From IMG/VR virus record IMGVR_UViG_3300020394_000542, positions 1 to 21,705 of that record: 21,705 nucleotides of DNA; one strand, given 5' to 3'. The position numbers and the translations under genes were made by a program. Origin of the DNA: a virus. Shown here in pieces: positions 2,351 to 5,309 of this stretch. The notes under the pieces were generated by a model that searched no databases, was not told the DNA's origin, and saw nothing but the letters and a program-made list of their open reading frames with translations. Every line of letters starts with the position of its first letter. Position 1 is the stretch's first letter.

Positions 2351-3529
2351 ATGCCTACAGGAATACAAGGGTTGCGCGGATCAGGGGAATTCTCAACTGA
2401 CTTCCGACCAACCAATTATCGGGAATTGTTTACACTTCTCGAACCAAATGGCTCCGCGCCATTCAATGCCCTACTCGCCATGACGTCGGGTGAGGCTACT
2501 GATGACCCTGTCTATAGTAACTTTAGAGATGAGATCCCCGAACGTGTCGTGAAGATCAACAACTCTGGTGGTTACAATGCGACTGCTACATCAATCGTCA
2601 TAGACGCTGATGTTGAAGTTGGATTTTTAACCGCTGGTACTTTGTTGGCCAACGCACGTACTGGTGAAATCATGCGCGTCACAGCCGATGCGTCTGGTAC
2701 AACTCTCGCAGTTGCTAGAAACTTGGGTTCAACAGGTCTAACCATCCTCGACAACGATGACTTATTTGTTAGTGGTTTTGCCGCCGCTGACGGTGACGAC
2801 GTAAGTACAGCAATTTCGTTTGATCCAACAGTTGTCTCGAACTACACGGAAATCTTCAGAACGCCATTTGCCGTGACCAACACCCTAAAGGCTACCTATC
2901 GTCGAACGGGTGATGCGGAAGATGAATTTGCTACGAAAGCTCTCAAGCTCCATATGCAAGAGATCGAGCGTGCAATGTTCTTTGGAAAGAAACACATCGA
3001 GAACACTGGTGCTTTCAACGAAAGGCGATACACTGGGGGTATCCTCTCCAGCATTACGAACGTTGTTGACGGTGCAACTTTCTCAACAAGCGGTCAGATG
3101 ACTGAAGATGAGTTCGACAGTATGCTCATCAACACCATCTTTGCTTTTGGCTCTCAACAAAAATTAGCGTTTGTTGGTGCTAAAGTAGCCGCACACTTGC
3201 AACGCTTCGGCAAAGCAAGATGGCAACCAACAGTTGTCGATGGAACGTATGGCGTGAACGTCACACGTTACGCAACGATGGCTGGTGACTTGATGGTTCA
3301 TTTGCATCCTCAATTCCGACAAGTCCCAGGAATGGACAGTGCAATGGTCATAATAGACATGCCACATGTCAAATATCGTTACCTCGATGGACGTGACACA
3401 TCATTGTTACGTGACAGGCAAGGTAATGGCGTTGATGGCGTGATCCATGAGTATCTCTCGGATTGTGGCCTAGAATTAACGCAAGACAAGGTCCATACCT
3501 ACATCAAGGGATGGCAAACGACTGCTTAA
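2351..3529 (+). CDS. Major capsid protein (HK97 fold, probably SU10/DUF5309-like), 392 aa
   Basis: This is the coat subunit of the icosahedral head. The N-terminal arm (MPTGIQGLRGSGEFSTDFRP) leads to YRELFTLLEPNGSAPFNALL, a pattern of phage coat proteins. A beta-rich insertion at about residues 75-145 (TAGTLLANARTGEIMRV...) is followed by the long-helix region FRTPFAVTNTLKATYR...LKLHMQEIERAMFFGKK, typical of the SU10-like/DUF5309 coat family. The C-terminal part has the strand-rich HPQFRQVPGMDSAMVIIDMPHVKYRYL. Length is normal for an HK97-fold coat. AAGGGAGG precedes the start and a strong hairpin follows the stop, both fitting high expression. The coat role is secure; the exact subfamily is less so. 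Confidence 0.92.
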   Translation: MPTGIQGLRGSGEFSTDFRPTNYRELFTLLEPNGSAPFNALLAMTSGEATDDPVYSNFRDEIPERVVKINNSGGYNATATSIVIDADVEVGFLTAGTLLANARTGEIMRVTADASGTTLAVARNLGSTGLTILDNDDLFVSGFAAADGDDVSTAISFDPTVVSNYTEIFRTPFAVTNTLKATYRRTGDAEDEFATKALKLHMQEIERAMFFGKKHIENTGAFNERRYTGGILSSITNVVDGATFSTSGQMTEDEFDSMLINTIFAFGSQQKLAFVGAKVAAHLQRFGKARWQPTVVDGTYGVNVTRYATMAGDLMVHLHPQFRQVPGMDSAMVIIDMPHVKYRYLDGRDTSLLRDRQGNGVDGVIHEYLSDCGLELTQDKVHTYIKGWQTTA

Positions 3530-3536
3530 CACAGTT

Positions 3537-3565
3537 AAGGGGGGCTTCCACTCCAGCCCCCCTTT
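3537..3565 (+). terminator. Rho-independent-type terminator after the capsid gene
   Basis: AAGGGGGGCT at 3537-3546 pairs perfectly with AGCCCCCCTT at 3555-3564 around an 8-base loop, giving a GC-rich 10-bp stem followed by TTTCCTT. It begins seven bases after the capsid stop. The T tract is short, so termination may be partial, allowing reduced expression of the tail genes downstream, as in T7 after gene 10. Confidence 0.85.
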
Positions 3566-3630: not shown

Positions 3631-3750
3631 ATGCCATACGTAGCTGGCCGAAAATACGCATACACTCCGGCTGGAAAAGCCGCCGCCAAAAAAGCAAAAA
3701 ATAAAATGATGGCGAAGAAAAAAAACAAAACCAAAACTAGAAGAGCATAG
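3631..3750 (+). CDS. Very small basic protein, 39 aa
   Basis: ATG 3631 is preceded by GAGG (3620-3623). The product starts MPYVAGRKYAYTPAGKAAAK and continues as an almost pure Lys/Ala/Asn/Thr/Arg tail ending TRRA. The G-R-K-Y-x-Y-T-x-x-G element recalls small basic proteins common near phage coat genes, none with a known role to my knowledge. It is the third small basic protein around the capsid gene. Good ribosome-binding site, correct stop and a following gene two bases away support it. A DNA-binding or capsid-lining role is possible but is inference. Confidence 0.65.
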   Translation: MPYVAGRKYAYTPAGKAAAKKAKNKMMAKKKNKTKTRRA

Positions 3751-3751
3751 T

Positions 3752-4090
3752 GTGCCGAAACACACTCAATTATGGTTAGGGGCGGCATGTTTCGTGCTGT
3801 TCCTTTACCTTTTGACAGTCGACGCTTTTTCCCAAGAAAACAAAGCCCCAGGTCTTCAGATGGGGCAATGTCTGCCAATCGCCACTGCCATAACACATAT
3901 GAAAGAAAAATTCAGAGAAGTGGTAGTCTTTCGCGGCATCAACCACCGCGAACAACTTGTCATCATAATGGCCAATCCTCTGACAGATAGCTGGACTGCC
4001 CTGCAAAGTTTACAAGGCGTGCATTTGTGTATCGTTGCGTATGGAAAATCGGGAGCAGTTCTGCCAAGCGTCGAGGGGAAAAAGCTTTGA
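3752..4090 (+). CDS. Exported two-cysteine protein, 112 aa
   Basis: Translation starts at GTG 3752, just after the previous stop. The N-terminus has a short basic start (MPKHTQ), a hydrophobic core (LWLGAACFVLFLYLLTV) and a likely cleavage region near DAFSQE, so the protein is probably secreted to the periplasm or membrane-anchored. The rest contains QCLPIATAITHMKEKF, later ANPLTDSWTAL and LCIVAYGKSG. Two cysteines in the exported part could form a disulphide. The pattern C-P-x(n)-SWT-x(n)-G-x-x-C-x-V-x-x-G resembles small exported proteins common in alphaproteobacteria and their phages. Function is unknown; an envelope role at infection or lysis is possible. It directly precedes the MscS-like gene. 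Confidence 0.75.
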   Translation: MPKHTQLWLGAACFVLFLYLLTVDAFSQENKAPGLQMGQCLPIATAITHMKEKFREVVVFRGINHREQLVIIMANPLTDSWTALQSLQGVHLCIVAYGKSGAVLPSVEGKKL

Positions 4091-4435
4091 ATGATCGAAC
4101 TTGCCAACGTCAATCAGCTATCTATTGATTTCGTCGAATTGATTGCTCCCTTGCTTGCGCTAACCGTCTCAATCGGGATTGGTCTTTGGCTGAAGGATGC
4201 AATGGACGCACTCGTCAAGGGGCTGACGTTCCGCGCTGACACTGCCATTGAAGAGGGGTGTACGGTCTACATCGATGGCCAACGCGCAACCATCATCAAA
4301 ATAGGCATATTCAAAACCACATTCCAAATCCAAAATGGAAAAGGAACCACATGGCGTTTTGTCCCAAACAAACGCATAGAGTTCTTACGCATTGAGAAAG
4401 TCATTACGGAGAACGAAGGGACGACAGACCACTAA
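4091..4435 (+). CDS. Minimal MscS-like membrane protein, 114 aa
   Basis: ATG 4091 follows the previous stop directly, with GAGGGGA at 4073-4079. After about 13 residues there is one hydrophobic helix (VELIAPLLALTVSIGIGLWL). It continues as KDAMDALVKGLTF, aligning by eye with the end of TM3 of the small mechanosensitive channel MscS. Next comes IEEGCTVYIDGQRATIIKI, FKTTFQIQNGKG and FVPNKRIEF, matching the MscS beta domain (GD-x-V-x-x-G-x-x-G-x-V, T-T, DG, VPN-x-x-I). Cellular MscS is about 286 residues with three membrane helices and a large C-terminal domain; here only the pore-type helix and beta domain remain. It may be a small channel, a holin-like protein or a modulator of host channels (inference). 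Confidence 0.75.
   Translation: MIELANVNQLSIDFVELIAPLLALTVSIGIGLWLKDAMDALVKGLTFRADTAIEEGCTVYIDGQRATIIKIGIFKTTFQIQNGKGTTWRFVPNKRIEFLRIEKVITENEGTTDH
4416..4425 (+). repeat. Dispersed motif, short form AAGGGACGAC, copy 3
   Basis: This copy lies at the end of the MscS-like gene, 51 bases before the 4477 start. It shares GGGACGAC with the exact copies but has AA in place of AATA before it. Confidence 0.5.
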
Positions 4436-4476: not shown

Positions 4477-4803
4477 ATGCAAGTCAAACAAGGGATGCGG
4501 TCAGTGCAATCCGCGCAATCGCAAACACTACAAGAAGAAACAGACGTCGGGCTACAGGCACAGAAGAAGCAAGCAAAAAAAGTCAAGGCGTCACAACCAA
4601 AAACCAAAACCGACAAAGGTCTTACTCTAGTCTCCACTGAAGCAAACGGTGCAAGATTTGATTTAATTTTGGGTTGGGATACAGCGATCAGAGGTGTTCG
4701 CACACAGGGCGGCTACATGATGTTTGTCATACCACCAGAGCATAAGGAACGTGCGATGCAACATGTCCACGTTGTGTCAGGAAAACTCGTTGAGGCAGAA
4801 TGA
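4477..4803 (+). CDS. Hypothetical protein with Gln/Lys-rich N-terminus, 108 aa
   Basis: ATG 4477 has GGAG at 4465-4468. Residues 1-48 are polar, rich in Gln, Lys, Thr and Ala and probably disordered. The remainder looks like a small folded domain: ARFDLILGWDTAIRGVRTQGGYMMFVIPPEHKERAMQHVHV, with alternating strands and an amphipathic helix. I do not recognise the family. The stop overlaps the next start (ATGA at 4800-4803), coupling it to the adaptor gene, so a head-tail completion or decoration role is plausible from position alone. Confidence 0.7.
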   Translation: MQVKQGMRSVQSAQSQTLQEETDVGLQAQKKQAKKVKASQPKTKTDKGLTLVSTEANGARFDLILGWDTAIRGVRTQGGYMMFVIPPEHKERAMQHVHVVSGKLVEAE

Positions 4804-5309
4804 CAACAAAGATAAATAAAACAGATCATCTGACGATTGGCACACGGGAGCCACCTAAAGACACACGTCTTGCTCCCCATGTTTTCCAAGGAAGCCCAAA
4901 CGCGCCCCTTGAAAACTTAGTTGCCCTCGCCCTACGTCGATATGGTGACTTTTCGTCCCGTCGCGTTACAGGCGATGTCGTTCTTATGATGATCGAATTT
5001 GCAAACGAAGTGGTCGAGATGATCAACTCGCACCCATACTACGACGGCGTCACGATAGAATACTATACGTCGCAAACTGACGCACGGCCTATTGAGGACG
5101 CCATCATGGTCCGAGGTCTTCTTGCGCTCTACGCAGAACAACAAGTATCCGAAAAATATCCAAACTCTCGAATGGAGTTTGTGAAGCATCTCAATGGCAT
5201 CCTGTACTCACGCAAGTACAAGGGAACTGTACGTCACGAATTTGTACCGACAGAAAACAGCGATCCAATGCGAACGGTCAATGGAGCCGAAAGCAAGTTA
5301 GCGATTTAA
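4800..5309 (+). CDS. Probable head-tail adaptor (connector) protein, 169 aa
   Basis: The start overlaps the preceding stop by four bases (ATGA). The protein is mainly helical: LENLVALALRRYGDF, VVLMMIEFANEVVEMINSHP, then a region with RPIEDAIMVRGLLALYAEQQ and MEFVKHLNGIL. Helical proteins of about 165-200 residues with this layout sit between coat and nozzle genes in podoviruses (P22 gp4 is 166 residues; T7 gp11 is 196) and form the ring under the portal. Length, helical content, the D-x-RPI-x-(D/P) element seen in many marine phage adaptors, and the nozzle gene next door all agree. Sequence similarity across adaptors is weak, so a structure prediction would be needed for certainty. Confidence 0.75.
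   Translation: MTTKINKTDHLTIGTREPPKDTRLAPHVFQGSPNAPLENLVALALRRYGDFSSRRVTGDVVLMMIEFANEVVEMINSHPYYDGVTIEYYTSQTDARPIEDAIMVRGLLALYAEQQVSEKYPNSRMEFVKHLNGILYSRKYKGTVRHEFVPTENSDPMRTVNGAESKLAI

Follow-up and report, generated by a model that had tools for sequence, protein, structure and literature searches.

Introduction

Microsporidian MscS2 proteins, which are of bacterial origin, have lost at least two transmembrane (TM) helices and part of the vestibule of the mechanosensitive channel MscS, and some members are only 73-95 residues long (PMC11262690). MscS2 of Nematocida displodere is a homo-heptamer that retains TM3 and the beta domain, and the authors regarded the extreme N-terminal truncation as unique to microsporidia (PMC11262690). 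Another reduced form is Trypanosoma cruzi TcMscS, which lacks the alpha/beta domain and is a working channel as proven by electrophysiology (PMC12334622); this domain is therefore dispensable for channel activity. In a survey of viral transport genes, putative mechanosensitive channels are listed for large DNA viruses only, with no phage case in the paper (PMC6163359), and MscL genes and "mechanosensitive ion channels" have been reported from estuarine viruses (PMC13288924). Here we describe a gene in the head gene block of a 21.7-kb virus fragment (IMG/VR record IMGVR_UViG_3300020394_000542, positions 1 to 21,705; henceforth the window) that is predicted to encode a phage relative of MscS of 114 residues.

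The closest architecture is that of microsporidian MscS2, which shares with the phage protein a core of TM3 and the beta domain, but comes from eukaryotic parasites and keeps residues corresponding to P129 and G143 of Escherichia coli MscS. TcMscS is likewise a miniature MscS without the alpha/beta domain, in which a TM3 and beta core makes up the channel; unlike the phage protein, it still has TM2 and a helix at the N-terminus. E. coli MscS (YggB) and gammaproteobacterial MscS proteins (such as L071 and L141) are collinear with the phage protein over MscS residues ~83-178, with 23% identity to E. coli MscS and 29% to L071, whereas they also possess TM1, TM2, the alpha/beta domain and the beta-barrel in ~280 residues. 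The channels of large DNA viruses are also virus-encoded mechanosensitive-channel homologs, but of other types: a 261-residue three-TM MscS type in AaV and the MscL type in TetV and CroV (PMC6163359).

Profile searches relate the phage protein to MscS

Searches with the single window sequence gave suggestive signals. In a phmmer search of the PDB, many MscS chains were matched at E values of 0.6-0.9 in one shared register covering TM3 and the beta domain, and NCBIfam MscS models matched the protein at E 0.0045 and 0.017. A Pfam search with the window copy gave no match, and the best family member (L088) matched Pfam MS_channel_2nd, the model of the Sm-like beta domain, at E 0.0084 and 16.6 bits, under the curated cut-off of 20.2 bits. 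EtpA, the top phmmer match in the PDB, was rejected as a repeat artifact without any single significant stretch.

The homology is firm because it was assessed with a family profile. The family comprises 12 IMG/VR relatives, one contig in a gammaproteobacterial metagenome-assembled genome (MAG) and divergent members (70-72% identical) reached via the neighboring gene. When the family was aligned to 16 bacterial MscS proteins with hhalign, the probability was 93% and the score 48.7; the best of 200 shuffles, composition-matched separately for the helix and soluble regions, reached 25.3. A blind search of 398 Pseudomonadota genomes with the family profile returned a true MscS as the best non-phage match (E 1.2e-5), and with the divergent members included the top 11 non-phage matches in 369 gammaproteobacterial genomes were all MscS (E 2.5e-8 to 0.0012). 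Against the PDB, all 13 matches of the profile at E<=1 were MscS chains. Conversely, when the open reading frames (ORFs) of the fetched phage loci were all searched with an MscS profile, this family alone was matched, with E values of 8e-10 to 9e-7 for full copies.

The weak single-sequence scores and the missed Pfam cut-off would be expected if the helix and beta stretch resembled MscS by chance. We give this explanation almost no credence, since MscS topped the blind profile searches of both genome samples and gave the only PDB matches at E<=1, and since the shuffles scored far lower. We conclude that, as judged by these profiles, the 114-residue protein is evidently a homolog of MscS across residues ~83-178 of the latter, which correspond to TM3 and the beta domain. 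The VPN motif is by itself weak proof, and the case rests on the profile evidence. The original prediction had proposed this homology and had named MscS profile searches as its check; similarity was indeed found by NCBIfam, by hhalign and by genome-wide profile searches in both directions.

The protein corresponds to TM3 and the beta domain

The protein has a single hydrophobic helix, with a best 19-residue Kyte-Doolittle value of 2.10 starting at residue 14 (2.13 for TM3 of E. coli MscS), followed by a beta-type stretch that carries VPNKRI at residues 91-96, in agreement with the original description of one membrane helix preceding a VPN-x-x-I motif. Residues 1-108 align to residues 80-182 of E. 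coli MscS, and the protein starts where TM3 of E. coli MscS starts. In this alignment, helix residues A19, A23, T25, S27, G29 and G31 lie opposite A98, A102, G104, A106, G108 and A110, and all six are unchanged across a 12-member family alignment. The small-residue packing and the kink that characterize the TM3 pore helix of the MscS family are present at the level of sequence, apart from a two-residue insertion considered below. The phage beta domain retains G133, T153, T154, P166 and N167 of E. coli MscS, and has a three-residue insertion ahead of VPN relative to that protein. Acidic residues (E3, D13 and E16) precede the helix and basic residues (K35, K43 and R48) follow it, a pattern consistent with the N-out/C-in orientation of MscS. 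The C-terminal alpha/beta domain with its side portals and the beta-barrel are absent: in all complete copies, the ORF stops just past the beta domain.

The reduced gene is conserved in a clade of uncultivated phages

Besides the window, 18 contigs carry the gene (70-99% identical), and complete copies encode 113-121 residues. The in-frame room before an upstream stop is 0-8 codons in most contigs (19 in L086 and 32 in L009); there is therefore no hidden in-frame TM1/TM2. Synonymous sites are mostly saturated, and the ratio of nonsynonymous to synonymous substitution rates (dN/dS) was taken only where they are unsaturated. Under this restriction, dN/dS of the MscS-like gene is 0.026-0.031, compared with 0.016-0.048 for w4800, 0.03-0.09 for the capsid gene and 0.10-0.38 for the flanking genes w3752 and w4477 (window genes are named by start coordinate). 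A ratio as low as in the capsid gene and w4800 shows that the MscS-like gene is functional and, by this measure, it is evidently kept under strong purifying selection.

A pseudogene or a truncation by sequencing error is ruled out by the constant length and the dN/dS. Because the gene is widespread and constant in length, with little upstream room and a dN/dS of ~0.03, we interpret its form as reduction and not decay, which upholds the strong reduction of MscS read in the original prediction. The minimal TM3 and beta architecture of the MscS2 type is stable across the lineage, a likeness of architecture only that does not imply shared descent with MscS2.

The gene is a clade-specific insertion in the head gene block

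The gene had been placed in a structural operon, and it indeed lies within the head gene block, in the order capsid gene, insert, and then homologs of gp44 (w4477) and gp43 (w4800) of Roseobacter phage CRP-810 (Table 1). A search for the same gene at this locus in other phages, as had been suggested, found it in every clade member covering the spot, always immediately 5' of w4477. The capsid gene adjoins w4477, with no MscS-like gene, in 42 loci of greater divergence (w4800 identity of 48% or less). The MscS-like gene is a clade-specific insertion between the major capsid gene and the next head gene; both this and the microsporidian MscS2 parallel had been missed earlier. The remainder of the insert is variable (w3752, a zinc-ribbon ORF and small basic ORFs), the MscS-like gene being its sole constant element. 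Between the window and L086, identity is 91% for the capsid, 90% for w4800 and 71% for the MscS-like gene, while between the window and L003 it is 74% for w4800 and 83% for the MscS-like gene. These discordant identities suggest that recombination inside the clade has swapped the insert.

Table 1. Features of the MscS-like gene and its surroundings in the window.
Feature	Position	Strand	Basis and remarks
MscS-like TM3 and beta-domain gene	4091..4435	+	ATG start, 114 residues; profile homology, 18 further contigs
TM3a-like membrane helix, residues 14-34	4130..4192	+	E. coli MscS alignment, hydropathy, 12-member family alignment
TM3b-like amphipathic segment, residues 35-46, KDAMDALVKGLT	4193..4228	+	E. 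coli MscS alignment; G44 = G121 of E. coli MscS
Beta domain, residues 47-104	4229..4402	+	E. coli MscS alignment and Pfam comparison
DUF7220 two-helix membrane protein, upstream of capsid gene	1756-2247 (match 1981-2178)		In 3 of 16 checked records
SU10-type major capsid protein, upstream of insert	2351..3529	+	Pfam SU10_MCP E 5e-34; 63% identical to Roseobacter phage CRP-810
G+C-rich hairpin directly after capsid gene	3537..3564	+	Sequence; letters differ in other clade members
Short basic ORF, 39 residues, variable part of insert	3631..3750	+	Sequence; similar ORF in L095
w3752, signal-peptide/TM and periplasmic two-cysteine protein	3752..4090	+	Stop directly ahead of MscS-like ATG
w4477, next head gene, CRP-810 gp44 homolog	4477..4803	+	Adjoins capsid gene in 42 insert-less loci
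w4800, conserved head gene, CRP-810 gp43 homolog	4800..5309	+	Bait for collecting 61 loci

A constant position between capsid and connector-region genes, and an evolution as slow as that of the capsid and w4800, would suit a virion or assembly component, such as a small membrane-anchored beta-ring for head maturation or one packaged for DNA entry. We consider this quite unlikely, given that the 42 related loci have homologs of the capsid gene, w4477 and w4800 but not this gene, that the surrounding insert varies in the manner of accessory genes, and that tailed-phage capsids usually lack membrane proteins.

An insertion of accessory type could also encode a factor that works at the inner membrane in superinfection exclusion or envelope stress, perhaps together with the periplasmic two-cysteine protein w3752, which the start of the MscS-like gene adjoins or overlaps in one sublineage. 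A temperate lifestyle would favor such a role, and the clade may be temperate, because an integrase and a Cro-like repressor are encoded on PBNR01000023.1 (see below). However, L086-L088 and L091 retain the MscS-like gene and lack w3752 upstream, and the position in the head block suggests late and not lysogenic expression; this role too strikes us as quite improbable. As w3752 is missing from the loci of divergent members, we rejected it as an obligatory partner. The DUF7220 two-helix protein was likewise rejected as a separately encoded TM1/TM2, since few of the checked records contain it (Table 1).

Other elements of the insert recur. The w3752 family (L001, L003-L011 and G771:C1:60938-61252, besides the window) consists of small secreted proteins with a signal peptide or TM segment and two conserved cysteines; such a gene lies directly upstream of, or overlaps, the MscS-like gene in one sublineage, and a distant relative (E 2.5e-13) is found elsewhere in an outgroup phage. 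A zinc-ribbon-like small ORF (MNCWFC...) recurs beside the MscS-like gene in L086 (3109-3279), L095 (2209-2442) and L088 (2898-3254). The post-capsid hairpin occurs at the same spot in clade members despite differing letters, and resembles a conserved partial terminator splitting the capsid gene from the insert.

Lysis genes lie elsewhere in the genome

The lysis cassette follows a giant virion gene and comprises a 51-56-residue one-helix protein, an M15 endolysin (phrog_894, E 1.1e-19) and a ~160-residue protein, the endolysin being flanked on both sides by predicted membrane proteins. All five near-full contigs examined share the endolysin and the ~160-residue protein. As a small one-helix membrane protein that might oligomerize, the MscS-like product had been put forward as a holin substitute. 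We now regard a role as holin or holin substitute as very unlikely, because the clade keeps this separate conserved cassette, with a predicted membrane protein on each side of its endolysin; phage holins are encoded with the endolysin, whereas the MscS-like gene lies in the head block.

The gammaproteobacterial MAG includes a phage contig of 60.6 kb (PBNR01000023.1; L079-L082) with a 99% identical copy of the MscS-like gene; this contig also encodes a tyrosine integrase and a Cro-like repressor. In the same phage genome, a CobT-like VWA protein is encoded beside an AAA (CbbQ/CobS-like) ATPase (L079 15953-19865).

A candidate minimal channel

We favor, at about an even chance, the explanation that a bacterial MscS was reduced to its core and that the product oligomerizes in the host inner membrane into a ring or pore with one helix per subunit, as the phage's own late channel. 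This proposal draws on the analogy with microsporidian MscS2 and TcMscS. An ancestral phage of the clade would have gained the bacterial MscS core, made up of the TM3a/TM3b pore-lining helix together with the beta domain, at the junction of the capsid gene and w4477. The product would be made together with the head proteins, late in infection, and would enter the host inner membrane with its N-terminus outside and its beta domain in the cytoplasm. Its subunits would then form a ring, probably a heptamer, in which the helices line a minimal pore beneath a beta-domain collar. Such a phage-owned channel might serve late in infection, for example in bleeding off turgor or adjusting the ion balance ahead of lysis. 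More tentatively, and on balance doubtfully, the phage lineage may have independently reduced MscS to a pore helix and beta collar that still conducts, is perhaps tension-gated, and controls host turgor or ions.

Several points weigh against a channel of this kind. The phage protein has a specific two-residue insertion immediately ahead of the TM3a/TM3b kink, and P129 and G143 of E. coli MscS are both replaced by Ala. The protein begins at the TM3 loop and has no TM1/TM2 paddle; because this paddle senses tension, mechanosensitivity may be lost. E. coli MscS variants without both C-terminal parts have been described as unable to insert in E. coli membranes (cited in PMC11262690). AlphaFold monomer models of two members (A1 and A7), built from near-identical sequences, reached confidence scores (pLDDT) of 52 and 50, and are uninformative because the family sequences are too uniform.

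A protein made up of exactly the TM3 and beta parts, which meet at subunit interfaces, might instead join host MscS subunits via this common interface and block the host channel or lock it open, as a dominant-negative or modifier. MscS-type genes are near-universal in the sampled Pseudomonadota (37 of 40 genomes), and the nearest sampled MscS (~29% identical over 103 positions) has the NQL and KIGIF motifs in common with the phage protein. We nevertheless judge this explanation unlikely, since the identity to host MscS is low, hosts have several MscS paralogs and the two-residue shift in TM3 would upset packing.

Implications

Comparison of E. coli MscS with PHROGs revealed no convincing MscS family, and two family members used as tblastn queries had no match among 50,697 phage records. 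MscS matches in INPHARED "phage" records were set aside, as most of these records are draft contigs of bacteria or lack annotation and are probably host DNA. Five IMG/VR contigs carry a full-length MscS, several of them at contig edges and possibly in host flanks. The literature searched yielded no report of a phage MscS, but subscription papers were thinly covered in it, so this is not proof of absence. As far as the literature and databases searched show, this is apparently the first case of an MscS-derived protein becoming fixed in a lineage of phages, and the reduction of MscS to TM3 and the beta domain had previously been described only in microsporidian parasites.

For mechanobiology, the family bears on the question of how small a part of MscS can still form a pore or sense tension. 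A strongly conserved natural core of 113 residues that can be expressed in E. coli offers a direct test of the minimal channel, independent of microsporidia. If the proposed role is true, host turgor or membrane tension would be a phage target beyond holin-driven lysis.
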